A stretch of 41,111 nucleotides of DNA from Scleroderma bovista (taxonomy: Eukaryota; Basidiomycota; Agaricomycetes; Boletales; Sclerodermataceae), in NCBI GenBank assembly GCA_037178675.1, contig JAYMGJ010000060.1, positions 1 through 41,111 on the forward strand, given 5' to 3'. The position numbers and the translations under genes were made by a program. The notes beneath the pieces are model-generated. The model was not told the DNA's origin and ran no database searches. It worked only from the letters and a program-made list of their open reading frames with translations. Shown in pieces: positions 1,239 through 40,771 of the stretch. Each line of letters starts with the position of its first letter. Position 1 is the first letter of the stretch.

Positions 1239-1607
1239 TGAGTGCACTGTGTGCAGCAATGCACCAGACAGTGCTCCAGCTCCCTGAGTGTCGCTTTAAC
1301 TAGCTTGATGCTGTGAACCACAGTGAGCTCCTAGCTGAGCCCCTGCACAGCCACAAGGCGAAGTCAGTCAACGACTTGCACCAGACAGTGAGCTCCTAGT
1401 TGAGCACCTGTATTGCCACAGGTGAAGTTCGTTGATGACCTGCGCCAACCATGGTGAACATCGACAACGACTTGCGCTGGCATGACCTAGTCATGAGTTA
1501 GCTGTTGACAGAAGTGCTTTCACTAGCACTCAGGTGTTTCTTCTTTTCTTGCTTGTCCATTGTCGCATTCACTTGCTGACTCCATTGACTCCCAACAGAA
1601 CATCACC

Positions 1608-2546
1608 ATGTCCAGCACTCTTGACAAGATGGTTCCCGTGTTCACTGGCTCCAACTGGCAGCAGTGGCACACCTCTATGCAGGCCTACCTCCGGGCACAA
1701 GGCCAATGGTATGTTTATTCGACAATGCAACCCGCTGCAGGTTACGATGACCGAAAGGAGTGGGACGACAACACTGAAAGAGTGCTCAGTAACATCACCT
1801 TGCACCTCGCCCCTTTGATCCAGGTTGCGGTCTCGAACCTTGACAACGTTAAGGACATCTGGGACCACCTCAAGAAGAACTTCGGCACCCCCAGTATCAG
1901 CTCTGCCTACGCTGAGCTTAGCAAGCTCCTGTCAACTACCATCTCCGCTGGCTCCCATCCCGCTCCGGCTATCACCAAAGTGCTTAGCCACTTTGCTTAT
2001 CTCAAGGACGCCAGCTTCGAGTTCCCTGCCCCCGTGCAGGCAATGATTATCCTTTGCAAGCTCCCTCCCACCATGGAGGTCATAGCTCAAATTCTTAGTC
2101 AGACATCGCCCGATGAGATCAAGAATCTGAAGCCCGACGGGATCATCAAGGCTGCCATGCTCTCATTCAAGCAGAAAGGCGCCTCTTTGCACGCCGGTGG
2201 TAAGGGCCCCCAGGCCAACAAGCTTAGCGCTGTGAAGCGCAAGCTGGCTGACCCAAAGTTCACCCAGCAGCAGCAGCAGCAGCAGCAAGGTGGGTCCAAT
2301 GGCAGTGCGAGCGGAAACGCTCCTGCCCAAGGACAGGGAGGCCACACTCAACGTGGCGGCAAGAAGGCTCGTGCTCGCCGCGAGAACGCCCAACAGGCTG
2401 CCTTTGCCACATACGTCCACTACAATGGACCAGAGCCCACTGTCGACCCTCATGCCTTAGCTCACACTCCCGGTGCTGCCCACTACGGCCCCCCGCATTC
2501 GATAATACTATTCGGGCCTTCGACTTGGCACACCGTCTGGGGGTAG
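1608..2546 (+). pseudogene. copia gag region
   Basis: The ATG at 1608 sits in CATCACCATG and begins MSSTLDKMVPVFTGSNWQQW, typical of fungal copia Gag, where the opening residues resemble the UBN2/DUF4219 type (GxNWxxW). An in-frame methionine also exists at 1560. The middle follows the usual Gag helix pattern, and a Gln run (about 2264-2287, CAG repeats) precedes a basic, RG-like tail that may bind RNA instead of a CCHC knuckle. The frame stops at 2544 because a C run at about 2489-2494 has apparently lost one base. The following frame, from around 2500, continues the protein with PAFDNT and onward. Confidence 0.85.
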
Positions 2547-4711
2547 AGCCCTCCTGCCAGACCATCCGCACCCTCGACCAAGTTGTGTCGATGGCAAGTG
2601 TGAACCTGGACCAGCCCGAGGCCGGTCCCTCCTCGCTGAAGCGCCCTTGTCTTGAGGAGCGCATCACGATGTATGAGGAGGACGCCATCTCCCTTGGGGA
2701 TGATGAACCCTTCACCAACAAGCCTTTCGCCGACGACGAGTTCGACGAAATCGATGCGATGGGCGCGGAGGCCAGCCTCTTCAGGCAAGTACCTTCTGCA
2801 CATGTGCTGACTGACACTGACATGCTCCCTTTACATGTGCGCTTTACGCCGTCACTGTATATAGCAAGTAGTAACTACAATTTGTCATGTCATGTCTCCT
2901 TGAGTAATGCATATACTTGTTCGTGTTCTCATGAAACGAGTGATGCACGCTGTGCTAAGTGTAAGGGAAAAATGGTCGACAATAGCGAACTATCTGGTGC
3001 CTTCTGGCTCCTAGACTCTGGCGCATCACACCACTTTACCGGTGACATAGGCGATTTCGCCTCCTATAATGCGCTAAAGCGAGCGCACTACGCCAAAACA
3101 GCTAATGGTGTAGCACTGATTGCTGGCATTGGCACGGTATTACTCCGGTGCCTAGACCACAACTCTGGGGATGAGAAAGTCATCACACTCACCCAAGTGC
3201 TCCATATGCCAGGTGCTACTGCATGCCTTATTTCTATGGGCGAGATGCTCCAGCGTAACTATAAAGTCACTGGCGATAAGCGAGGCATTAGCCTCATTCA
3301 TAAAGCTGAACGCCTATGGTTTGGGCCAGACCCAGAAGACGATCGCAACATCATTTTCGGGATTAGATCTATCCTGATAATTAGATCTAACTATATTGCC
3401 TCTGTGAGCAAAGTCGATTACGACATTATGCACTGGAGATTCGGGCACCCCTCAAAGGAAGTACTCCGACGTGCACAAAAACATACGCAGCGCTTCCCAG
3501 AGATTCACTTTCCAACTGAGGATTGTGTTTGCCCTGGATGTGCTCTTGGCAAGATGCCCAATTGAGCTTTCCCAGAGAATGAAAGACATGCTTCCAAGCC
3601 CTTTGAGCTGGTGCACTCTGATCTCAAATCCTTCCCGGTTACATCGTACCGGAAGTTTAAATATGTTATTACCTTCTACAACGACTATACTTCTCATGCC
3701 TGGACTATGCCTCTTTGCTCCAAAGCTGCAGCGATTACGGCTGCCAAAGATTTCCTCGAAATGGTGCACGTCCAACATGATACGCACGTCGTTGGATGGA
3801 TGTCCAATGCCGGCGGAGAGTATAAATCCGATCTATTTGATCGAGCACTCCTTGAAAAAGGAATTAAAATATATCAAAGTGCTCCAAGAACCCCCATGCA
3901 GAATGGCCGCGCCGAGCGTTTAGGGCGCACTCTCATGGATAAAGCTGAGTCTATGCAGCATCAAGCCTGCATCCCTGACTCCTGGTGGGAATTTGCGTTC
4001 GCTCACGCAACTCACCTTTACAACCGTACTCCGGTAGCTCGCCTGCGATGGCGCACCCCCCATGAAATGCTTAAGGGGGAGATGCCTAACATCGATCACC
4101 TCTGTGTATTCGGCTGTGGAGCATTTGTATATCTCCCAGCAATGGCTAGAGCAAATAAGATGGCTCCCAAGTCAGAGCTTATGACCTATGTCGGTGTTGC
4201 CCCTGGCAATGAGCGCAATTTCTTGTTTATGTGCTCCACCAATGCAGTGTTTACTGCTGCTCACGCCGTCTTTGACGAGCGTCATTTCCCTTGCTGCCCT
4301 AAGAACAGGTGCGAACCTCTTGAGAACCCTTTCGGAAGGGCAAATCCGAAACCAGCCACTGATCGACCAGGGAATCCCCCTGATGATACTGACAGTGATA
4401 ATGATGTGGAACATGACCATGGCTACCCACATCCCCAAGCGCAGGATGATGATCCAAAGTGCAAGGAACCCAAGGCTCCTGAGGAAGAGCCTAATCAAAT
4501 AAATCCTCCCCGTATGCCATCTCCAGTGCCTCCACCAGCACCGAGAATGCCTTCACCGGCGAGAAACCCGCCACCTCCGGCACCGCAGTGCCCTGGCCGA
4601 GCTGAACGCTGCCAGAATGCGCCACGACCTCCTGCAGTTAATATACCTGCCCGCCCCCAACGTGAACGTAGAGCGCCATTGCACCCCGGTAACGTGTATG
4701 GTGAGCGCTGA
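2497..4711 (+). pseudogene. copia protease and integrase region
   Basis: Protease motif WLLDSGASHHFTG lies at about 3006-3044. The GAG-pre-integrase zinc finger (HxxxH and CxxC around HWRFGHP and CVCPGC) is at about 3430-3550. TGA at 3563 interrupts the frame just after CALGKMPN, and the protein continues with AFPENERHASKPFELVHSDL. The integrase core has the first Asp (HSDL) and the Glu in NGRAER, but the middle Asp motif reads SNAGGEY (about 3804-3824) where DxGGEY is usual, so a catalytic residue is probably lost. A Pro-rich, acidic linker follows, then TGA at 4709. Both stops fall where Arg would be expected. Confidence 0.88.
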
Positions 4712-6502
4712 CATCCCGTTGAGCAACTCCAGGATATCGAAAGTGCCTCTCGATGGCGAGAAACAGTGGGTGAGGCCCCTAGGCCCCCACAACCAGACAC
4801 GCCAGACCATATCCCTGGTGGTTTCCCCAACACCTCTGCAACGCCCAGTGAGGAAGATGTGCAAAAGATGTGCGAGGAAGGGGGAGCAAACCTAGTCCGA
4901 TACCTGATGGGCAAAGCCCTCAAAACCCGCGAGCCTCAATATGAGAGCGTCCGCAACTGGTCCTACAAGGACATCGCTCGCTTACCCCAAGCTGAGCAGA
5001 AACTCTGGCGACTTGCTTGCCAAGAAGAGCTCGATGTGCTGCGAAAGCGCAAGGTCTTTGTCTTTGAGCTAGTTGACCATCCCCGAGACCAGAAGGTCAT
5101 AAAGAATTGATGGGTCTTCGACGTGAAGTCGGATGGCCGCAAGAAAGCCCGCTTAGTAGCAAAAGGCTTCTCCCAGGTCGAGGGATTAGATTTCAACCAG
5201 GTCTTCTCACCAGTCGTGCGCTTTGAAACAGTGTGCCTCATGCTTGTGCTTGCCGCACTTGAGAATTGGTATATCACTGGACTTGACGTTCGGAGCGCCT
5301 ACTTGTATGGCAAGCTCAATGAAGAGATCTACATGGAACAACCCAAAGGGTTTGCAGTTCCCGGGCAAGAGTGCAAAGTGCTCCGCCTCTGGCGTGCCCT
5401 CTATGGCCTCAAACAGGCTGGCCTAGCTTGGTGGCGCACACTCGATGAGTCTCTCAAAGAGCTCAGGTTTGAGTGCCTTAAGTCTGAAGCAGGCATCTTC
5501 TTCTACAAGAAGAAAGGCACCAACATCATCATCGGTATTATCTACGTTGATGACGCTCTGTTCTGCGGCCCTAACAAGGCTGTTGTTGATGTCATCAAAG
5601 CACAGTTCATGCGCAAATGGGAGTGCAGAGACCTTGGAGAACCTAAGGAGTTCCTCCGAATGCGAATCACTCGCAAGGGTCATGCTATCCACCTGGATCA
5701 ATGCGCGTACCTCCAAAAGGTCGTCGAATGCTGCGGCATGCTCAATGCAAAGTCCGCAAGCACCCCACTGCCGGCTGGCTACTATGCCGCCAAAAATACA
5801 GAGCCTGTTGATGCGGAACTCCGCTCCCATTTCCAGATGGTTATTGGGTCCCTCCTGTACCTTATGTTAGGCACTAGGCCCGACATTGCCTTTGCAGTCA
5901 CGCACCTCTCGTGCCATGCCGCGAACCCATCCCAGGACCACCTATCCAAAGCACTTTATATTTCTCGCTACTTGATTGGTACACCTAATTACTCCCTAGT
6001 GTACAATGGTGGATCCGGTGCTGGCCTGATTGCATGCACGGACTCAGATTGGGGATCAGACCCTATCTCTCGCCTCTCGCAGACAGGTTTCTACCTGAAA
6101 CTTGCAGATGGCTTGATCAGTTGGACTTCTCGTGCGCAGAAGACTATTGCGTACTCGTCCACTGAGGCCGAATACATGGCTTTGAGCGATTGCGCTCGCC
6201 AAGTTACCTGGATTCGGAGTCTACTTGGTGAGCTCAGCTATAAGCTGAAAGCTATCCCGATTTGTGGTGATAATCAGGGGTCCATATTCATGGCATCCAA
6301 CCCTGTAACAGAGCCTCGCTCCAAGCACATCGACATCCGCTACCACGGAATCCGCGAGTCAGTCGCGAAAGGTAACATGGAACTATTCTTTATTGATGGT
6401 GCTGAGAATCCTGCTGACCTGCTCACCAAGAACTTACCCCGCGAGAAGTTCACGAAGTTCAGAGCTCAACTAGGCTTACAGTTTCCCTCTGGCAGCATCT
6501 AG
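4712..6502 (+). pseudogene. copia reverse transcriptase and RNase H region
   Basis: The RVT_2-type reverse transcriptase starts near WSYKDI (about 4960), is interrupted by TGA at 5108 just before WVFDVKSDGRKKARLVAKGF, and then runs open from 5111 to 6502. Visible motifs are GLDFNQVFSPV, LDVRSAYLYG, LWRALYGLKQAG and the catalytic YVDDALF (about 5542-5562). RNase H carries TDSDWG, SSTEAEYMAL and DNQGS, then SKHIDIRYH and NPADLLTKNL near the C terminus. Apart from the single TGA this half is intact and of usual length. It ends 46 bases before the 3' LTR. Confidence 0.92.
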
Positions 6503-11830: not shown

Positions 11831-14800
11831 AGGTAGACGACTTGCGGATTCCACGAACATCACGTGCTTTTGCGTGACTTTTGCGTGACAAGGAGAAAAA
11901 ATCAAAAACAATTTGATGAGCACAGAGAACAAGAAAGTGATCAAAGTAAAAAATGTAGCGGCCTCAAATTTATATTGTCCATTGAGCAAAAGACAAAGAT
12001 GTGATGTGTGAAGATATATTTTGAATTTTGAATGGGATTCAGAAGGCTTAGCAGGCAAGAAAAGTCCGACACAAATTCAGCAATAACCAAGGAGAGGTGC
12101 TGTGCAAGCCGAGGGTGGACTGCAGTGGGCACACTGCACAGCACACATCATGGGAAGGCGGAGGCACTTCCACGAAGCGCTGGGTGCCAATCTCGCTGTG
12201 GCACGAGAAGCAAAGTGTTTGAAACGCCTGTGCAGTGCGGGAAACCATGATATTGACAAGTCAGTGCAAGTCACGGAAGAGAGAGCAGGGGGAGATAACT
12301 CACCAGTGTGTATCCTGGTCCTTCTCCCGAGTCCAAAGCTGATGTATATTCTGGATCCAGTTGTCAATCATTAGTCCAGTCTTTACAGTGAATGATGACA
12401 CTTACATTCTTTCCACATCACCTCCGAGTCCAGTTGATACAGCTGAGGTGTTCTCCGAGACTCACAACTGGTTTGGGAACGAGTCTAGAGCTACCAGTCC
12501 AGGTACAGAGTTCCAAGAACTTACCACTAATATTTTTCTCCCCCAAACCCCAGCACAGGTTGACTGGGAACCTATTGACACATTGGAATGTGACTCTATC
12601 CAACTCCCTGGAGACTGTAGGGCCAGTGACCCTCCTGACTCAGACTGCTGTTGAAGGTTGCAGCGATCCGTCTCGTGTGAAGAGGTTTTTGATGAAGAGG
12701 AAGACCTTGTGGCTGTAAGGGGCATACGACGGCGCGAAAACTTGATGAATCCATTCATGGGACCAGGGATCTTCGAGGAGATTGAGCTGGGAAGTGGGGA
12801 GGCAGGGGCAGAAGAGCATTTGTGGGGGAATGATGAAACCTGCTCTCTCACACTCGGAGAATCCATCAATGCACGCACAGCCGCACATGGTGCTTCGACT
12901 CACACACTTCAAAATACGAACCTCTGCATGGAGATGGATGCTGAGACTGTCACAGAGGGTCACAGTGATGACAAGAGTGACGAGGATAGCAGTGACAAGG
13001 TGGCCGCTGAAAGTGCTGCAGCTGGGCAGACTCAGGACTACAGCTGGGTGCTGCGTTGTCCCCCAACTATTGAAGCTGCAAAAAAGGCTTTAGCTGATCT
13101 TCGGACTGTCCTCAGGCCACAGAGAGCAGATAAGACTGGGTACACTGACCCAAAGCTCAGCCCTGTGCTCGAGGAGCGCCTCCGAGCAATGAAGGACTTC
13201 CTTGTCATATTCACCGACCTTGAAAACAAAGAAAATTTGGTTGGAGGGCAGTGGGGAAAGGCAGCATTGCAAGTGGCACGACGTCTGGAGAAGGGGCAAT
13301 GGTTTGCACGGTGCCTTCGTCAGTGGACAAAGCGATACATCCAAGATCGGACACGCCTGCCAATCCGTAAGCGGAATTCTCTGCCTTCCCGTATCGAAAA
13401 CAAGGAACTTGCTGCGGGGATCAAGCTCCACTTACAGAGCATAGGCAAATATATTCGGGCTGCAGATATTGTTCATTATCTTGAAGACCCTGTGGTGCAG
13501 AAGCGTCATGGCCTATCAAAATCTGTGTCATTGAAAACTGCGCAGCAGTGGCTTAAAATATTGGGCTATTGATGGAAACAGGAAAAAAGGGGACAGTACA
13601 TTGATGGCCACGAGCGTGAAGATGTGGTTGGATACTGCCAAAAAACCTTTCTGCCAGCATGGACAAGTCTTGAGCCCTGCCTGCGGACCTGGGACACCAA
13701 TGACCTCACGCACGAACTTGATTCCCCCCCTCTCCCCCCCTTGATGTGTCACACTGTTGTTTGGTTCCATGACGAATCAACATTTTATGCAAATGATCGC
13801 CGTAAGCTTCGATGGGAACACAAAAATGAGGATGCAATCCCCCAGCCAAAGGGGGAAGGGGCATCATTGATGGTGGCACATTTTGTCTCAATGGATTACG
13901 GATTCCTCCAGTCACCAGATGGAGAAGAAAGTGCCCAGGTCCTTTTTAAGGCAGGAAAAACTCGTGATGGATACTTCTCAAGTGACGAAATTCTGAAACA
14001 TGCAGCACTTGCTATGGACATCCTCACGAAACACTATCCAAACGAGGACCATGTTTTTATTTTTGACAATGCCACCACACATGTCAAACATGCTGATGAC
14101 ACATTATCAGCCCGGCATATGCCAAAGAAGCCAACACAAACATGGGGAGTTGAGGTGACGGTGACAGGTGCTGATGGGAAAACAGTCTATAAAGCAGACA
14201 GAAAACCACAGAAAACGAAAATCCAGATGGCCTCTGCATGCCATGAAAATGGTGATCCTCAGCCTCTCTATTTCCCTACTGGCCATCCATGAGCTGGTTG
14301 GTTCAAAGGAATGGAACAGATCCTCCAGGAACGAGGCTACAACACAAAAGGTCTCAATGCAGAATGCAAGGGATTCAAATGCAATGTGGGCCGAAAAAAT
14401 TGTTGCTGCCGCCGCATTTTGTTCAATGAACCAGACTTCTTGCATGTCGAGTCCCTCTTGGAAGCTCAGTGCCACCAACGTGGGTTCCGCATGATTTTTT
14501 TGCCAAAATTTCACTGTGAACTTAATTTCATTGAGATGTGTTGGGGGTATGCAAAACGATTATATCGGCTTAACCCCCCGTCCCCAAAGGAGGCTGATCT
14601 CGAGCGGAATGTCATCACTGCACTCACTGCAATACCACTCACCTCAATGAGACGGTAAGCTGGTTTTATTTGTGTATTTTATTAACTCACATCAATGCCT
14701 ATGTCTATAGCTTTGGTATGCGATCTTGTAGGTTTATTGATGCCTACCGATGTGGCCTCAATGGTGCTCAAGCTGCCTGGGCTGTGAAGAAGTACTGAGG

Positions 14801-20510: not shown

Positions 20511-21637
20511 CTACATAATATACCCTGCATGACGAATCCAGCCCCGACATTTCTCAGCAGTAATACAGGCGGTTGCTTCAATGAGTGTTGCCATAGGGTC
20601 ATTCTCTTCATGAAGATGGTGTGCGTGATGACGGAGATATGATTTTACTGTAGTCATGATCAGCAAATCATCATCCGTTCATAGGCAACAGCTGGACTTA
20701 CATGCACTGAACGATTCTTCGATTGGATTGAGATCGGGTGAGTATGGCGGCAGGAACAGTAAGATACATCCTATGAATAATGAAGGCTATATTACACAAG
20801 ATGGCGGCCCGGGAACATACCAGCTTGCAGCAGGGCTGCTTCAAGGTCCTCATTTTGGTGGATACGGCAGTTGTCAAGGACAATCACTGATCGTTCTGCA
20901 GGGAACGGGTTCATTGAAGGAAGCTGTGAAGGAATATGAGAAAATGTCCATGTAAAAAATACAAAACATACGACTTGTTCAATGACGAACTGGGAGAACA
21001 GATCACGATCAAATGATCCCTCAACGACATCTGCTGCGATGTACCCATCCACTGCCATGGCAGCCACAAGTGAGTACCGGTCACCACGAACAAAGACATC
21101 CGCGAAGCGTGCTCGAGTGCCTGACATTGCCCATCCATAGTGACGTGCCCATGTCCGCTCGTCTTTGCTGGTCTCGTCAATGAAGATCAACTCTGAACCA
21201 TCACCTTGAAAGTTGTTGTGCACCAGTTCTCGGAACTCTCTGCAACGTTCCTCGTCTCTTTCTGCAGCGATTTTGTGGAGGATCTTTCTGGTAAGACCGG
21301 CTTCAGCAAGGTTGCGGGAAAGAGTCGAAGTCGAGATGGCAATATCATGTGTGAGCGCAAGCCATGCAACAACCTCGTCGAGAAATAGGTCTGTTTCCTG
21401 AGAAAAGAGGTCCTTGCAGGCCTGGATGAGGGTACGTGTGAGGACACGGAGGCCCTGACCTTTCAAAGGTGATGGAGGGCGGATGACAGTGCCATGCTCT
21501 TCGAAGATTGCATGCCATCGAAAGAGGCTGGCACGCGAAACTCCTAGAATGTCGCATATATCCTCAATCTCCCAACCTTGATCCCACAGCTTGAGGGCGA
21601 TTAGCTTGACATCTTCACTGATACGGCGGTTCCCCAT
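20511..21637 (-). CDS. Tc1/mariner-like transposase of transposon B
   Basis: ATG at 21637 (MGNRRISEDVKLIALKLW). The N-terminal helix-turn-helix pair reads ALKLWDQGWEIEDICDILGV and SRASLFRWH, then a second one around LALTHDIAISTSTLSRNLAE. The catalytic core has FIDETSKDERTWARHYGWA (Asp), VIVLDNCRIHQNEDL (Asp) and FLPPYSPDLNPIEESF (Glu), which is the Tc1 signature. Three introns are evident, and the last exon ends EKCRGWIRHAGYIM at 20511. No stop codon interrupts it. It is complete and of normal length. Confidence 0.9.
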
Positions 21638-21781
21638 GGTTGTTGGGCCCACAATTAGGCTGTTCCCAATTTGGAAGCACGCGACTCGCGACTTGAACAA
21701 ACACACGCAATCTCATTATACTTGGGAACAGCTGTAATATCCCGTTTCGGCGAACGCCGTCTTCTCGTATCCCGTCCCTCA

Positions 21782-23744: not shown

Positions 23745-26700
23745 ATGACTCCTCAACCCACTGAGAAGCCTCAGCCTTGCTCAAGTTCCAACGCGAGTAA
23801 GTTTAGGCTCAATATCATGCATAGGATAGTAGTGACCGGACACTCTAGGTACGGATCCTGCCGACCAGAGGGCTTGTACTAGTACTGTTGAAACTGGATT
23901 TCGCACCGATGCCACCAAGAATGTCCCACGCGACTCTACGGGGAATATCCCTCGCATGGACCCTGCGATCACCAGAAAGCACTTCGATCGCATTGGCCGT
24001 TTTAGAATCCTTGTCATCGGCAGATCCAATGCTGGTAAAACGACACTCTTACAGCGCATTTGCAACACCACCGAGCTGCCGGAGGTCTTCAATTCTGATG
24101 GAGAAAAGGTATGGGTATATCGTCTCCCACATTATAATATATCATTCATTATGTCAACTTGCTGAAACCCCAGATTGATCCTAATGTTGTGCGGGGATCT
24201 TTGGAGGTGAGTTCATGACCTGCCCGTTACACCAGGTGACCAAGTTACTGACTGTCCTTCAGAGAGGGGAACATACAATTGAAAAAGAATTGATTTTTCG
24301 GAGCAATACATGCTTCATCTTTCACGACTCCAGAGGATTTGAGGCTGGTTCCGAGGAGGAAGTAAAGCTGATGAAGAATTTTCTCATGGACCGTGCAGCC
24401 ACAACAGAATTAGAAAAGCGAATCCATGCAATATGGTAAGGCCATACTATAACTAAGAGATAACTGATCCTAAGTGGGGCAGGTATTGTATTCCATTGAC
24501 TGATTCTGAAAGGCCAATTTTGGCTGCAGAAGAGCTCTTCTTCAATGAATGCAACACAGGAAATGGTGAGATAGTCTGTTGTGATATAAGGTAGCAGGGC
24601 TCTGAAAATATATGGAATAGTTCCTGTGATTGTGGTGTTGACAAAGGCTGATGCCATGGAGTTTAAGGCCATTGGGCAGCTCAGGGATGAAGGTTTGACA
24701 ATGAAAGAAGCAAGGTCACAGGCAGGGGAATTAGCCAAACAGCTACTGGTACAGGTGAAGAAACAGGTTGAAGACCAATTGGGAGAGTGCAAGCACCATC
24801 CTAATGACTGTTTGGCACTATTTGGAGGGTATCAATTCATTTAGGTGTGGGGATGTGCTGACTTCTCTTATTTGTGCAGGTATGAACAAAACCAATGCAG
24901 ATTGTGATCCACTTCTAAGGTGTACAACCAATGCACTGGATGATATGGAAATGCAACAGCTTTTGGTATCAGCACAACAAGTCAATTTCAACCTGAATAT
25001 TGAATATGCTATAAAGTAAGAAGGTTGCCTTCCTGTGGCTGTTGCATAATGGAACTGTGATCATTTGTAGATATATTGTGAAGAAAGCCAATAGTCCATT
25101 TGACAAAAAAGCACTGGAATTGGTGATTCTGGAATGGATGCCATATCTAGAGGTATTGTCACCATTGGTATTGCTTGTCATATTAATGGGGATTTGTTTA
25201 TAGGTGATTGATTGTCTGGTTAATGCAATAGAAGAAAGCTAACCATAAAATTGTACATGAATTATTATTGTGGCCTCTTGCCTTGACAGAGAGTGAGTGA
25301 TTTTATGGCAGGTCCAGCTGGGTGTCTTCTCACTGTCTTCACCCCCAATCTGGTGCTGTTGTCTTCACAGAAAGTGGGTGATTTTAAGCCATGTTGAGCT
25401 GGGTGTCTTATCACCATCTTCACCCCCACTCTGGTGCTGTTGCATTTACAGAGAGTGAGTGGTTTCATGTTAGGGCCAGCTGGGTGTCTTCTCACTGTCT
25501 TCACCCCCACTCTGGTCCTGTTGCCTTGACAGGCTGTGAGTGATTTCATGGCAGGTCCAGCTGGGTGTCTTCTCACTGTCTTCACCCCCACTCTGGTCCT
25601 GTTGCCTTGACAGGCTGTGAGTGATTTCATGGCAGGTCCAACTAGGTGTCTTCTCACTGTCTTCACCCCCACTCTGGTCCTGTTTCCTTGACAGTCTGTC
25701 AGTGATTTCATGGCAGGTCCAGCTTGGTGTCTTCTCACTGTCTTCACCCCCACTCTGGTCCTGTTGCCTTGACAGGAAGTGAGTGATTTCATGGCAGGTC
25801 CAACTGGGTGTCTTCTCACTGTCTTCACCCCCACTCTGGTCCTGTTGCCTTGACAGGAAGTGAGTGATTTCATGGCAGGTCCAACTGGGTGTCTTCTCAC
25901 TGTCTTCACCCCCACTCTGGTCCTGTTGCCTTGACAGTGGGTGAGTGATTTCATGGCAGGTCCAACTGGGTGTCTTCTCACTGTCTTCACCCCCACTCTG
26001 GTCCTGTTGCCTTGACAGTGGGTGAGTGATTTCATGGCAGGTCCAGCTGGGTGTCTTCTCACTGTCTTCACCCCCACTCTGGTCCTGTTGCCTTGACAGG
26101 CTGTGAGTGATTTCATGGCAGGTCCAGCTGGGTGTCTTCTCACTGTCTTCACCCCCACTCTGGTCCTGTTGCCTTGACAGGCTGTGAGTGATTTCATGGC
26201 AGGTCCAGCTGGGTGTCTTCTCACTGTCTTCACCCCCACTCTGGTCCTGTTGCCTTGACAGTCTGTGAGTGATTTCATCGCAGGTCCAGCTGGGTGTCTT
26301 CTCACTGTCTTCACCCCCACTCTGGTCCTGTTGCCTTGACAGTCTGTGAGTGATTTCATGGCAGGTGCAGCTGGGTATCCTCTCACTGTCTTCACCCCCA
26401 ATCTGGTGCTGTTGTCTTCACAGAAAGTGGGTGATTTTAAGCCATGTTGAGCTGGGTGTCTTCTCACCATCTTCACCCCCACTCTGGTGCTGTTGCCTTT
26501 ACAGAGAGTGAGTGGTTTCATGTTAGGTCCAGCTGGGTGTCTTCTCACTGTCTTCACCCCCACTCTGGTCCTGTTGCCTTGACAGGCTGTGAGTGATTTC
26601 ATGGCAGGTCCAACTAGGTGTCTTCTCACTGTCTTCACCCCCACTCTGGTCCTGTTGCCTTGACAGTGGGTGAGTGATTTCATGGCAGGTCCAGCTGGGT

Positions 26701-29700
26701 GTCTTCTCACTGTCTTCACCCCCACTCTGGTCCTGTTGCCTTGACAGGCTGTGAGTGATTTCATGGCAGGTCCAGCTGGGTGTCTTCTCACTGTCTTCAC
26801 CCCCACTCTGGTCCTGTTGCCTTGACAGGCTGTGAGTGATTTCATGGCAGGTCCAACTAGGTGTCTTCTCACTGTCTTCACCCCCACTCTGGTCCTGTTT
26901 CCTTGACAGTCTGTCAGTGATTTCATGGCAGGTCCAGCTTGGTGTCTTCTCACTGTCTTCACCCCCACTCTGGTCCTGTTGCCTTGACAGTCTGTGAGTG
27001 ATTTCATGGCAGGTGCAGCTGGGTATCCTCTCACTGTCTTCACCCCCAATCTGGTGCTGTTGTCTTCACAGAAAGTGGGTGATTTTAAGCCATGTTGAGC
27101 TGGGTGTCTTCTCACCATCTTCACCCCCACTCTGGTGCTGTTGCCTTTACAGAGAGTGAGTGGTTTCATGTTAGGTCCAGCTGGGTGTCTTCTCACTGTC
27201 TTCACCCCCACTCTGGTCCTGTTGCCTTGACAGGCTGTGAGTGATTTCATGGCAGGTCCAACTAGGTGTCTTCTCACTGTCTTCACCCCCACTCTGGTCC
27301 TGTTTCCTTGACAGTCTGTCAGTGATTTCATGGCAGGTCCAGCTTGGTGTCTTCTCACTGTCTTCACCCCCACTCTGGTCCTGTTGCCTTGACAGGAAGT
27401 GAGTGATTTCATGGCAGGTCCAACTGGGTGTCTTCTCACTCTCTTCACCCCCACTCTGGTCCTGTTGCCTTGACAGGCTGTGAGTGATTTCATGGCAGGT
27501 CCAACTGGGTGTCTTCTCACTGTCTTCACCCCCACTCTGGTCCTGTTGCCTTGACAGGAAGTGAGTGATTTCATGGCAGGTCCAGCTGGGTATCCTCTCA
27601 CTGTCTTCACCCCCAATCTGGTGCTGTTGTCTTCACAGAAAGTGGGTGATTTTAAGCCATGTTGAGCTGGGTGTCTTCTCACCATCTTCACCCCCACTCT
27701 GGTGCTGTTGCCTTTACAGAGAGTGAGTGGTTTCATGTTAGGTCCAGCTGGGTGTCTTCTCACTGTCTTCACCCCCACTCTGGTCCTGTTGCCTTGACAG
27801 GAAGTGAGTGATTTCATGGCAGGTCCAACTGGGTGTCTTCTCACTCTCTTCACCCCCACTCTGGTCCTGTTGCCTTGACAGGCTGTGAGTGATTTCATGG
27901 CAGGTCCAGCTGGGTGTCTTCTCACTGTCTTCACCCCCACTCTGGTCCTGTTGCCTTGACAGTCTGTGAGTGATTTCATCGCAGGTCCAGCTGGGTGTCT
28001 TCTCACTGTCTTCACCCCCACTCTGGTCCTGTTGCCTTGACAGGAAGTGAGTGATTTCATGGCAGGTCCAACTGGGTGTCTTCTCACTGTCTTCACCCCC
28101 ACTCTGGTCCTGTTGCCTTGACAGTGGGTGAGTGATTTCATGGCAGGTCCAGCTGGGTATCTTCTCACTGTCTTCACCCCCACTCTGGTCCTGTTTCCTT
28201 GACAGTCTGTCAGTGATTTCATGGCAGGTCCAGCTTGGTGTCTTCTCACTGTCTTCACCCCCACTCTGGTCCTGTTGCCTTGACAGGAAGTGAGTGATTT
28301 CATGGCAGGTCCAACTGGGTGTCTTCTCACTGTCTTCACCCCCACTCTGGTCCTGTTGCCTTGACAGGAAGTGAGTGATTTCATGGCAGGTCCAACTGGG
28401 TGTCTTCTCACTGTCTTCACCCCCACTCTGGTCCTGTTGCCTTGACAGTGGGTGAGTGATTTCATGGCAGGTCCAACTGGGTGTCTTCTCACTGTCTTCA
28501 CCCCCACTCTGGTCCTGTTGCCTTGACAGGCTGTGAGTGATTTCATGGCAGGTCCAACTAGGTGTCTTCTCACTGTCTTCACCCCCACTCTGGTCCTGTT
28601 TCCTTGACAGTCTGTCAGTGATTTCATGGCAGGTCCAGCTTGGTGTCTTCTCACTGTCTTCACCCCCACTCTGGTCCTGTTGCCTTGACAGGAAGTGAGT
28701 GATTTCATGGCAGGTCCAACTGGGTGTCTTCTCACTGTCTTCACCCCCACTCTGGTCCTGTTGCCTTGACAGTGGGTGAGTGATTTCATGGCAGGTCCAA
28801 CTGGGTGTCTTCTCACTGTCTTCACCCCCACTCTGGTCCTGTTGCCTTGACAGGCTGTGAGTGATTTCATGGCAGGTCCAACTGGGTGTCTTCTCACTGT
28901 CTTCACCCCCACTCTGGTCCTGTTGCCTTGACAGGAAGTGAGTGATTTCATGGCAGGTCCAGCTGGGTATCTTCTCACTGTCTTCACCCCCACTCTGGTC
29001 CTGTTGCCTTGACAGGCTGTGAGTGATTTCATGGCAGGTCCAACTGTGTGTCTTCTCACTGTCTTCACCCCCACTCTGGTCCTGTTGCCTTGACAGTCTG
29101 TGAGTGATTTCATGGCAGGTCCAGCTGGGTGTCTTCTCACTGTCTTCACCCCCACTCTGGTCCTGTTGCCTTGACAGTGGGTGAGTGATTTCATGGCAGG
29201 TCCAGCTGGGTGTCTTCTCACTGTCTTCACCCCCACTCTGGTCCTGTTGCCTTGACAGTCTGTGAGTGATTTCATGGCAGGTGCAGCTGGGTATCCTCTC
29301 ACTGTCTTCACCCCCAATCTGGTGCTGTTGTCTTCACAGAAAGTGGGTGATTTTAAGCCATGTTGAGCTGGGTGTCTTCTCACCATCTTCACCCCCACTC
29401 TGGTGCTGTTGCCTTTACAGAGAGTGAGTGGTTTCATGTTAGGTCCAGCTGGGTGTCTTCTCACTGTCTTCACCCCCACTCTGGTCCTGTTGCCTTGACA
29501 GGCTGTGAGTGATTTCATGGCAGGTCCAACTGGGTGTCTTCTCACTGTCTTCACCCCCACTCTGGTCCTGTTGCCTTGACAGACTGTGAGTGATTTCATG
29601 GCAGATCCAACTGGGTGTCTTCTCACTGTCTTCACCCCCACTCTGGTCCTGTTGTCTTCACAGAAAGTGGGTGATTTGAAGCCATGTTGAGCTGGGTGTC

Positions 29701-31025
29701 TTCTCACCTTCTTCACCCCCACTCTCTTCCTGTTGTCTTCACAGAAAGTGGGTTATTTTAAGCCATGTTGAGCTGGGTGTCTTCTCACCATCTTCACCCC
29801 CACTCTGATCCTGTTGCCTTGACAGCTTGTGAGTGGTTTCATGTTATGTCCAGCTGGGTGTTTTCTCATCATCCTCACTACCACTCTGTTTTTCTTACCT
29901 TTCCAGGAAGTGAGTATTTTCCTCTTGAGTCCAGCTGAATATTTTTTGATTATCTATCACTTTCCCTCTGGTCCTGTTATCTCAATAGTGTGTGAGTAAT
30001 TCTGTTTTACATCTAGCTGAGTGTCTTCTCACTACCTTAAACCCCACTCTGGCATTGTCATATTTACAGCTGGTGAGTGATTTCCCCTCAAATCTGGCTG
30101 GATATGATTTCTCATTGGCCCTCTGTCTTTTATCATTCATTTTTTTGATAGAGTGTGAGTGACTTAATTTCATATCTAGCTTTGTATTTTCTCACTGTTA
30201 TTATTCTCACCATGATTTTGGTGTCAACAGAAAGTGAGTGATGTGATGTATATATTATTGTACTATCATACCAATGCCCTGCCTTCCCATTTCTCCAGCA
30301 AGTAAGTCAATTTCCATTATTTGCCTCTTATGGCCATCATTGTGCACTTTTCTTACATTGCTTTTTAGGATGTTAGTCATTTCTATACCTTCTTCACCCT
30401 GCTTATCCTTTACATATTTTACATTTTCTAGGCAGTAAGTTATCATTTTCTCATTCACCAATATCTTTTCATGTGTTCCCTTAGAATCTGGTATGTTCTT
30501 GTTTTTTATCCATCATATCTCCATCATATCTCCCACATAGAATGTCAGTCAATTTTTCATGGGTTTATCCTTAGCTTATGGTTCTCATTGCAACAAAGAG
30601 AATACTTTTCATTGATGATTTTGAACTACCTCTTTTGTGCCCATCTCACATGGAGTCTTCTATGCAGCAGTGCATAATACATGGTGCTGGTGAGCCACAT
30701 CCAGTCCTTGTCCACAATTTCTAAATTTGTCCAAGGATGTATTCTCATCTTTGAGTACTCCTACTTCTATTTACAAGCAAAAGCAGATCAGAAGGACATC
30801 ATTGCACTTGCAGTCAAGGAATACCAAGAGTCTAGGATTCAAAGTTCTATTGTTGTGGCCCTTCAACACACTATCCAGGAATATAATAAAGATCATATTA
30901 AATTACAGCAGGCCATTTTTGATATCATTGTGGCAAACCGCATGTGTAAGTCTGTATTATTTATAAACACATAAAATCTTGAATCAAGTTTTGTCTCAGC
31001 AAACAAATTCAATTTGGCACAGTAG
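23745..31025 (+). CDS. GTPase-domain protein gene spanning a 67-microexon array
   Basis: Conventional exons: 23745-23796, 23849-24108, 24174-24206, 24263-24435, 24483-24565, 24621-24828, 24880-25015, 25071-25152 and 25204-25218. Motifs are G1 VIGRSNAGKTTLL, G3-like FHDSRGF and G4 VVLTKADAME, as in the small G domain of Era/AIG1-like fungal proteins. The array at 25290-30543 adds 67 potential microexons (68 codons). C-terminal exons are 30599-30689 (RILFIDDFELPLLCPSH), 30736-30945 (IALAVKEYQES, AIFDIIVANRM) and 31000-31025 (SNKFNLAQ, then TAG). All junction phases agree except 24828/24880, which is one base off in a G run. The product would be about 520 residues. Exon 25204-25218 uses a GTTAAT donor; without that splice the frame ends with TAA at 25240 after AIEES. 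Function is unknown beyond GTP binding. Confidence 0.65.
25290..29828 (+). repeat. 81-bp tandem array; each unit one codon plus a 78-nt intron-like sequence
   Basis: 57 units start at 25290 + 81(n-1) with no length change over 4.5 kb. Each is: three bases, then GTGAGT (or GTGGGT, GTCAGT), a TTCTCAC branch-like motif about 44 bases before the end, a C/T-rich tract, and TTGACAG, TTCACAG or TTTACAG. The three bases are GCT at 14 units (4, 5, 11, 12, 17, 19, 20, 25, 28, 33, 41, 45, 47, 53), TCT at 11 (6, 13, 14, 21, 22, 26, 34, 37, 42, 48, 50), GAA at 10 (7, 8, 27, 29, 32, 35, 38, 39, 43, 46), TGG at 7 (9, 10, 18, 36, 40, 44, 49), AAA at 7 (2, 15, 23, 30, 51, 55, 56), AGA at 6 (1, 3, 16, 24, 31, 52), ACT at 54 and CTT at 57. 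The opposite strand has a 1485-codon open frame only because 81 is divisible by three. Confidence 0.97.
29829..30598 (+). repeat. Diverged tail of the array with retained splice-like signals
   Basis: Ten more units continue with codons GAA 29907, TGT 29989, CTG 30070, AGT 30152, AAA 30231, CAA 30299, GAT 30369, GCA 30432, AAT-CTG 30485 (six bases) and AAT 30541. Spacing drifts from 81 to 82, 79, 68, 70, 63, 53 and 56. Intron bodies lose similarity to the main array, yet each keeps an AG before and GTGAGT, GTAAGT, GTTAGT, GTATGT or GTCAGT after. The minus-strand frame is broken throughout this part. After 30541 the next acceptor is ambiguous: CAACAAAG at 30598 is used in my model. Confidence 0.85.
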
Positions 31026-38342: not shown

Positions 38343-38455
38343 AAGGGATAGGAACTAGTTTGCGTATGAGATTGGGATAGTGAACCCACACAAGTGTGAG
38401 TCTGAAATACTGTCAAATCTGGGTCTACTCTGGTAGGGGGTCCAGTCAAGTCCGG

Positions 38456-40771
38456 TGTGTGCCTAAGTGAGGGAAGAGGTCAGAACAACCAACAACCAAC
38501 ACCAAATGACAGCAAAATGTGAGTGGTGGTCTCCCTTTGCGTTTGTGATATTTAATCTCCTCAGGGGGATGTGCTGCACGCCTTCAGGCAGGATGCAGGA
38601 GGGAAGGGAAGGGCTTCTGATGGGGATGATATGCGACTGGGGATGGTATTGACTCCTCTTCAGCCTACCACAGTGGTTAGGAAGAGTCCTGGGATTGAGC
38701 AGCAATGATAGATTGGCAACAGGGAAGCAAGGGGACAGTTCCTGCTCCAAGAATGCGATGGACAGTGATGGGATAGAGTGGACAGAGATGCTAGACTGCA
38801 CTTGAGCCTAGAGAAATGATCAGATACAAGATATATCTGATAAACAGCAATATAGGAGCTTTAGGCCAGCACTGAGTGACCTACAAGTCCAAAGACAGAG
38901 ATAGAGCTTATAGACAGTGAGGGAGAGTGAATGTGGTCGCTTTATTGAGGGGGAAGCAGACACTTCCTTGCAGCCTTTGGCTGCTGATTTATATACAGGA
39001 GGGGCTGTGGCCCTGTAAGCACAAATGACTAAGTGCTTGGTAAGAGATTGGTAAGAAATTGGTAAGCAATTGATAAGCAGTGTAATCAGGCTGAGTCATC
39101 AATGGGGAGAGCCTGAACAAGCTGCTGAGCCAAGGGAAAGAGCAAAAACATAGGTAAAAAGGGGTGCATAACCAAGAATATGGAAAAATCATTGCATGGG
39201 GCCCAAAAGAGAGGAGGGGAAAGCATGGGATGAGTAGATTGAAGCTAAATGAGCATATGCAATGACATAATGCATATTAATCATAGGGGCATGAGTCATG
39301 AATTGATAAGCAGCATGATAAGCATGATTTGAAGGATGATTGGTAAGTGATTGGTAAGGGGAGTAATGGGGATTAGTAATGCCAAGAGGGGATGAATAAT
39401 GCGCAGCAGAGTGAGTCAGAGTGAGCCAGAGTGACTCTGTGTGACTCAGACAGAAGGGAAGCACAACCTGTGATTGATTGAACTTTAGATCTGGAGATGA
39501 GCTTCTGAAGCAGTGCCACTGATGGGAGTGGCTGGGGGATAATAAAAGGATTGATCCGACCAGAAGAGCAGTGTCAGGGGGCCTGGAATGACAAGTAGAG
39601 TCACAGCTGGTCACAGAGTGTCACAAATCCCTTGGATTGAGCTTCTGTAGAGCAAAAACGCGAAATTTGGTGCTCCCAAAGTGCAGTCTTCCCTTGAGCA
39701 GTAAGGGGAAGGTTCTGTACTCTATTAGGGCTCCTAAGAAGGGTTCTAGAGCACTGTTTCATTTGTGTTTGTTGTGGGATAGCAGGGAAGTGAAACATGA
39801 ATAGCGGATTCGACGTGTCCAGGGAAGCAAGATGAATGATAGAGGGAGATGGATGTGACAGGACTCTGGAATGAAAGGACCATATGCAGAGGACTCAGGA
39901 GACACAGAGATGACCAGGTATGAATTTTAAAGTCTAACAATAGACTTGAGATGACCAAAGTATGTGCGCGACGCAGGACTGACGAGGAGAACGTGCTGAC
40001 CGTGAACGAGAGGGACTGAGGGAGAAGGCTGGGAAGATATGTATCAGACAGTACACAGGAGCTCAGGGAGAGGCTGTCCCAAGAGCAGGACATAGTTGAG
40101 GTCTGCTGCAATAGCGGAGAAACATTCCAGAGAAAATGCGGACTCCATAGTGAGTGATGAAGTGGGTGTCTGGATTGCAGGTGGAATATCTCTGTGGGAA
40201 ATAAACAGATTTACGTCGAAACTTGACAGGCAGATAGACCACAGTCTAGGCTCCATGATGGTATAGTCACATGATTGATAGCTTCAAAAATGGCGGAGCT
40301 ATTCAAAATATCAGATTGCCGGCACTGGGCGCCTAAATTTGACATTTGGGTGCTAAAAATGATTCTTCCTTTTCTCCTTCGTTTCTCTATTGTTTCTTCT
40401 GCTTCTTTGGTTGTTCTGGTATGGGAGTTGGACTGCAGTAGGTTGCATTCCTCTCTCATACTGAAATGATCATCAATCCTTGGATTCTTCTGCTTCTTGG
40501 TGGTTCTTGTGCGAGGGATGACTGCCAGACGATGGCATTCATCTCTTGCTCCAGGATAGTCATTCTTGTGCGGATAGATGGCTATGACAAGGTTGTATTC
40601 ATTCTTTGCATAAGGATAGTCTTGACTTTGCATGATATGGATAGCGAGGGCTGTCTGTATCCCTCAAGTCGGGACAATCTTTCAACAGATCTTGGGTGTG
40701 TGTTCTTTGTACTAGTTTCATTGGCTAACTTTCTCCATGTCCACAGTACCAAACATGTTTGGTGTGTGACA
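38456..40771 (-). repeat. Gypsy 5' LTR, about 2.3 kb
   Basis: The minus-strand start is TGTCACACACCAAACATG (with the inner palindrome CCAAACATGTTTGG) and the end GGCACACA, followed by the gag leader. Its 3' half is the inverted partner of 1-1071. It holds a TATATAAA box near 38990. Confidence 0.75.

Follow-up and report, generated by a model that had tools for sequence, protein, structure and literature searches.

Chains of predicted single-codon microexons in a family of GTPase genes of Scleroderma bovista

The stretch of DNA analysed here (the window) comprises 41,111 nucleotides (nt) of contig JAYMGJ010000060.1 of Scleroderma bovista and carries, on its forward strand, a predicted GTPase gene whose middle is occupied by a long array of very short exon-like elements. 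A splice-chain parser that permitted exon lengths of 1-24 nt, and favoured none of them, recovered at 25290-30543 exactly the 67 tiny exons that a preliminary description of this DNA had claimed, 66 of them 3 nt long and the other 6 nt (AATCTG, 30485-30490), each unit running from an acceptor to a donor. Together they hold 68 codons, and all 68 are sense codons. The parsed introns measured 78 nt in 58 cases, 79 nt in two, 50 nt in two, and 76, 65, 67 and 60 nt in the others, and the ordinary coding exons on both sides join the array in phase 0. The same description had given introns of 50-79 nt, no stop among the codons and flanking exons in matching phase, and the parse bears this out. When a microexon is taken as an internal exon of at most 15-51 nt with spliceosomal sites on both sides, the corresponding sequence signals are present in 67/67 units.

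The chain itself had thus been described correctly, but its repeat nature had been missed. Most of the units are part of an 81-bp tandem repeat at 25274-29868, for which Tandem Repeats Finder gave 56.7 copies with 91% matches. The first 58 units (25290-29909) belong to this repeat; in the last nine, whose exons are 3 nt long in eight cases and 6 nt in one, neighbouring introns differ from each other (identity 0.55-0.67). Because of this origin the 67 units cannot be counted as coincidences that arose independently. The triplets are not accounted for by the repeat alone, however, since variation peaks in precisely the three codon columns, with 1.42-1.55 bits against at most 0.96 in each other column of 56 aligned units. 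The strict pattern YAG-N3-GTRAGT occurs 53 times on the plus strand of the window and once on the minus strand, and on the plus strand each other spacing of 0-24 nt between YAG and GTRAGT was found 0-3 times. The longest unbroken run of strict sites is only eight, because many donors differ from GTRAGT.

The preliminary description had treated this as a single odd gene, which proved too narrow, as searches of the genome (51.8 Mb in 850 contigs) gave 39 matches to the downstream C-terminal exon, the window included, and 189 to the GTPase exons. We examined 28 stretches, namely the window and 27 others (L009-L035), leaving aside eight small loci that were parts of the window. Chained exons, mostly of 3 nt, were present in 27 of the 28, and therefore in 26 of the 27 beyond the window, the exception being L035, which consists of 1,077 bases at a contig end. 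Exon lengths were counted in 26 stretches (the window and L009-L033), where 875 of the 931 chained exons were of 3 nt and 21 of 6 nt; in L034, parsed separately, 45 of 46 exons were of 3 nt and the remaining one was a 6-nt exon. The pair CAA|GAT stands near the 3' end of the array in 25/27 chains (it is missing from L021 and L027, and in L016 and L032 it is present when the in-frame donor is used), and in 19/27 chains it is followed by a codon x and a 6-nt exon coding AL, NL, PL or TL. Two of the stretches, L027 and L028 on contig C127, look like the halves of one gene whose array was split by a long insertion, and L029 on contig C298 is a near-identical intact copy of that gene (99.7% upstream and 100% downstream). 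Upstream of the parsed chain of L015 (contig C512), between it and the contig end, lie four further units with a TAT donor and no AG 4-5 places before that donor, so that this array is longer than its parsed chain.

A regular array within a gene might also be a minisatellite lying in one large intron, removed in one step from 25218 to 30599, with splice-like sites that are only decoys. The regular part is indeed a tandem repeat, and of the annotated relatives, P0001 stops close to the position of the array, which P0024 skips. The composition of the triplets points the other way. Among arrays with eight or more regular units, a threshold that excluded two stretches, the triplet was the most variable part of the unit in 24 of 24. 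Array counts are not independent, as units are copied, and for this reason we also used unique contexts and counts per locus. Stops amount to three TGA among 875 triplets, and the 524 unique contexts hold the same three, whereas about 61 would be expected under column independence. No array triplet ends in C (NNC: 0/875, and 0/524 unique), as against 1461 of 6522 ordinary codons, that is, codons of the same genes located by similarity to the window protein (p=1e-55). The ratio NAA:NAG was 166:13 in unique array contexts and 545:591 in ordinary codons (p=1.5e-33). Counted by locus, NNC occurred in 0/26 stretches, and NAA exceeded NAG in 26/26 arrays but in only 7/26 sets of ordinary codons. Genome-wide, 851 exact units of the form AGNNNGTGAGTGATTTCATG contain no TAA or TAG, two TGA, four NNC and five NAG. 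The avoidance of NAG may come from the rival acceptor that NAG before GT would offer.

The 3-nt spacing is also kept in L033. The introns of this array are fully diverged (adjacent identity 0.47-0.66), yet its exons measure 21 nt for the first and then 3 nt for 26, 6 nt for one and 3 nt for one. Strict YAG-N3-GTRAGT sites occur there 20 times, with zero at each other spacing of 0-24 and a longest strict run of six, while 1000 dinucleotide shuffles gave a mean of 0.03 and never more than one. The avoidance of stops, NNC and NAG, the retained spacing and the recurrence of CAA|GAT near the 3' end speak against a minisatellite, as does the protein P0002, discussed below, in which array-like residues are followed by a translated repeat intron. 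We therefore regard removal of the array as one large intron as very unlikely.

Within an array, each amino acid is nearly always written with one codon. Pairs of the same amino acid with different codons made up 112 of 2009 pairs within arrays (0/570 in L030), and 4-13 amino acids are used per array. Random codon mutagenesis, considered as a source of the diversity, is at odds with a single codon for each amino acid. Equal codons stand in runs no more often than expected (109 runs versus 111.5), which speaks against simple duplication of single units acting alone. Linkage between codons and intron variants was computed for seven of nine arrays tried, the other two having too few units; it was clear in the window, L011 and L013, and partial in L030, L031 and L032. 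We then compared codon order between close pairs of arrays, with flanks about 93-98% identical, against 200 shuffles, using a simple pattern that misses some units. The order was near chance in L018/L020 (25 shuffles as good), L014/L019 (24) and L025/L026 (81); the corresponding numbers were 11 for L011 and the window, two for L023/L024, and zero for L009/L010 and for the near-identical L027/L029. The pair L018 (C298) and L020 (C127) has flanks of about 96.5% identity and the same intron sequence, with near-unrelated codon order, and each member contains 2- or 4-nt exons; it is possibly a haplotype pair. From one codon per amino acid and codon-intron linkage we infer that codons are copied like letters and that recombination in the introns changes their order. 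A puzzle for this view is L020, in which 27 of 28 introns are identical and yet the codons are mixed. Recent growth of each array from one unit, tried as an explanation, by itself fails for the same array.

Near-identical introns, such as those of L020, would also be left by an introner burst, in which copies of one mobile intron were inserted between the codons of a pre-existing ordinary exon, and the multiplication of similar introns by introners is documented (PMC9860276, as excerpted). This intron, however, is rarely found outside arrays. Exact donor cores preceded by AGNNN number 851, versus 14 with a base other than G at -4; seven of these 14 lie in parsed arrays and four in L015 upstream of its chain (cores with G but not AG were not part of this search). 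Of 11 acceptor cores without unit context, three lie off any array found (C281, C321 and C472). In these core counts the introns are thus confined largely to the arrays and not dispersed over many unrelated genes, as introners would be. Insertion in phase 0 at every third base, with no NNC and one codon per amino acid, also makes a poor fit to an ordinary exon, and we consider an introner burst highly improbable.

Further evidence comes from related proteins. P0002, with 453 residues and a longest contig of 2,346 bases, has a GTPase part without the introns of the window gene, followed by 78 array-like residues rich in K, E, S, W and L and then by VSDFMAGPAGC, which is identical to the in-frame translation of the first 33 bases of the repeat intron. 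The PLWSCCLD that follows later is a translation, in another frame, of the 3' part of the repeat intron. Such a protein would be expected if the microexons were spliced and a single intron were retained. More weakly, a similar stretch in P0100, from another fungus, ends in VSMLFLPW and could represent another retained GTRAGT intron. P0046 is nearly identical to the annotated Pisolithus protein P0024 up to WFPNTK and then becomes Q/E/Y-rich at the point where P0024 jumps to the C-terminal part, and P0121, which has both ends, shows an H/E/Y-rich stretch at the array position of the alignment. P0001, whose early end was mentioned above, is the top-scoring annotated relative. In AlphaFold models the array part of P0002 was predicted as long helices (predicted local distance difference test, pLDDT, by block about 66-84), and the variable stretch of P0121 was of low confidence (pLDDT about 44-55). 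Foldseek with the P0002 model gave weak matches only, EngB and IRG-type GTPases among them (best E 4.5e-4), and a PDB sequence search with P0121 gave no match. An amphipathic helix was considered as a shared theme of the array peptides and set aside, the helical hydrophobic moment clearly beating shuffles in L015 alone of 24 arrays and four protein stretches.

The preliminary description had proposed that this gene encodes its middle part codon by codon, and the 26 further stretches with chains, the statistics of codons and splice signals and the P0002 sequence all support this. We consider it very probable that S. bovista has a family of GTPase genes in which arrays of single-codon microexons encode a hypervariable linker, and that the window gene is one member. 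In this gene the spliceosome would join the 67 microexons in frame, and the 68 residues so encoded would form a hypervariable linker that connects the GTPase part to the conserved C-terminal domain. The proposed unit combines a single codon with a short but complete intron, always in phase 0; gain, loss, reordering or skipping of units would accordingly leave both the reading frame and the splice sites intact. An exon of 3 nt is below the size needed for ordinary exon definition, which makes intron definition likely, and splicing would probably begin at the 5' side and proceed in order, the upstream exon growing by one codon at each step. Unequal recombination in the near-identical introns probably copies and reorders codons while homogenising the introns. 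The amino acid diversity of the linker appears to be kept by selection, and its role, at a guess, might lie in recognition or partner specificity beside the GTPase switch.

More tentatively, and with slightly less than even confidence, we propose that the arrays store a protein segment as one-codon cassettes set in interchangeable introns, an alphabet with roughly a single codon for each amino acid. The cassettes would be reordered freely by recombination, or by a process that writes codons into units otherwise identical, and possibly expressed as countless in-frame splice isoforms of one gene. Such cassettes, if real, would allow fast and open-ended protein evolution. If our interpretation is right, an exon as small as a codon can still serve as the repeat unit of a gene, and a protein can be edited by whole amino acids and always in frame. 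It would also become testable how the spliceosome handles dozens of consecutive 3-nt exons, and how arrays of identical introns keep mixed codons. A protein region would further have been overlooked by standard annotation, given where P0001 ends.

Several observations weigh against this interpretation. That the S. bovista arrays are spliced is deduced from sequence. Of the 931 chained exons, 29 are not multiples of three; read by eye, 13 of these have an in-frame GT donor at +3, four are chain ends and 12 are unexplained, namely CTTG in L010, GAAGG and AGGTTGAG in L013, AATGCAT in L015, GTGTA in L016, GA and TTGA in L018, GG in L020, a 23-nt exon in L021, GA twice in L023 and TGATGTCATG in L032. 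Seven of the 12 (in L010, L013, L018, L020 and L023) sit in otherwise regular units. The TGA units of L013, L021 and L032 would end translation if included, and codon-intron linkage was not significant in L010. P0002, P0046 and P0100 are known here as proteins, and carry the source tag 'lgn', which we take to denote assembled sequencing runs. The array and C-terminal region of L033, used as a protein query, returned 73 candidates, none at E 0.001, and no consistent helical periodicity was found in the array peptides (24 arrays and four protein stretches). The window copy could moreover be damaged, as its exon-6 donor region (24809-24880) reads GGAGGGTATC, in common with L011, and shifts the frame unless another donor is used.

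To these must be added an open frame of 1,485 residues on the minus strand (25265-29722), which raises the alternative of an opposite-strand gene for a protein with a 27-residue repeat. Of 26 stretches, 10 have a longest antisense run that takes up 80-95% of their array. The run spans only 12% in L033 and L016, 17% in L029 and 21% in L013, and with L032 these five fall at 12-25%, so the frame is not conserved across arrays. Since 81 is a multiple of three, one stop-free unit is enough to yield a long antisense open frame. A gene on that strand would leave the splice sites and the variability of single triplets unexplained, and we hold it to be extremely improbable. Damage to the window gene is a separate matter, because the arrays of the family could be genuine and this copy a pseudogene. 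Its weak or shifted exon-6 donor would fit, as would the fact that a few paralogs show stops or a broken frame, whereas 68 of 68 codons are sense and in phase and the spliced model has no in-frame stop. We think a pseudogene unlikely here.

The model of the host gene is given in Table 1. Because of the exon-6 donor sequence, a weak GTTTGG donor at 24810 was assumed. The spliced model has 509 residues without a stop, made up of the GTPase part, the 68 array residues and the C-terminal part, the 3' end of the gene being left unmapped; its predicted N-terminus, MTPQPTEKPQ, is polar as judged by eye. The 15-nt exon before the array has a counterpart, GTGATTGGTTGTCTG followed by gtgaat, in the paralogs L010 and L012, and the intron leading into the array is also 71 nt in L010, L012 and L013. 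The window protein is homologous to Scleroderma G-domain proteins, the closest to the model being one from Scleroderma yunnanense (73%) and the contig protein P0002 (76%). In a scan of homologs of the window protein against the Pfam P-loop GTPase family PF01926, P0002, P0001 and P0207 were above the cut-off and P0019 and P0121 below it.

Table 1. Predicted features of the array-bearing GTPase gene in the window
Feature	Position	Strand	Basis or remark
GTPase-part exons	23745-23796, 23849-24108, 24174-24206, 24263-24435, 24483-24565, 24621-24809, 24880-25015, 25071-25152	+	splice-phase-consistent model, homology; predicted
Last ordinary exon 5' of array, 15 nt, V-I-D-C-L, phase 0	25204..25218	+	gene model
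Predicted intron into array, 71 nt	25219..25289	+	gene model
Regular array part: 58 predicted single-codon microexons (AGA AAA AGA GCT ... CTT GAA)	25290..29909	+	intron-like stretches nearly all 78 nt
Diverged 3' tail: TGT CTG AGT AAA CAA GAT GCA AATCTG AAT	29989..30543	+	splice-chain parse
First ordinary exon 3' of array, phase 0 start	30599..30689	+	gene model
Conserved C-terminal exon (CILIFEYSYFYLQAKADQ...VANRM)	30736..30945	+	gene model; 39 genome matches, window's included

The gene is enclosed by a long inverted repeat at 1-1074 and 38453-39498 of the window, with arms about 38 kb apart that match over 783 nt at 97% and over 272 nt at 95%; this repeat possibly marks the ends of a large element or is a feature of the assembly. 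By eye, the translations at 1560-6502 (+) resemble a broken copia-like retroelement, and transposase-like open frames lie at 20792-21706 (-) and 12658-14292 (+). An Rfam scan of the window gave no matches and a tRNA scan none.

In the literature searched (excerpts of open-licence PMC papers, preprints excluded), we found tiny exons that occur singly, aphid genes with many exons and introners scattered among genes, and no description of a chain of one-codon exons. The spliceosome required would be an ordinary one, and the design of the gene, as far as these excerpts show, would be undescribed. The GTPase part is homologous to that of Agaricomycete G-domain GTPases (PF01926), and these relatives also vary before the C-terminal domain; of the two annotated examples, P0001 breaks off close to this region and P0024 skips it. 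Chains of small symmetric exons, skippable without a frameshift, are also a feature of the schistosome MEG genes. Their product is secreted and has a signal peptide. The Scleroderma chain differs from them in that it occupies the middle of a GTPase gene and consists mostly of tandem repeat units. The aphid bicycle genes resemble the Scleroderma genes in having very many small exons per gene, but these exons are larger than one codon. In the excerpts available, one gene of this bicycle/megacycle group has more than 100 microexons, and almost all internal exons of bicycle genes start in phase 2 (PMC9168663), whereas the array exons here are of one codon and in phase 0 and their introns are tandem copies. 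Single microexons of 1-15 nt in plants and animals are alike in that an exon of one codon or less stands between complete introns; examples are a 1-nt exon in Arabidopsis (PMC4674806), a 3-bp exon in Drosophila homothorax (PMC7392893) and those of a plant microexon survey (PMC8831610). In the text consulted these are reported singly, in contrast to the Scleroderma arrays, where they would come by the dozen in a row with the codon as the variable part. Introners and introner-like elements share with the arrays the multiplication of near-identical introns (PMC9860276, PMC4457414); judging from the same partial sources they are dispersed among genes, whereas the Scleroderma introns have been amplified in tandem within one gene family.

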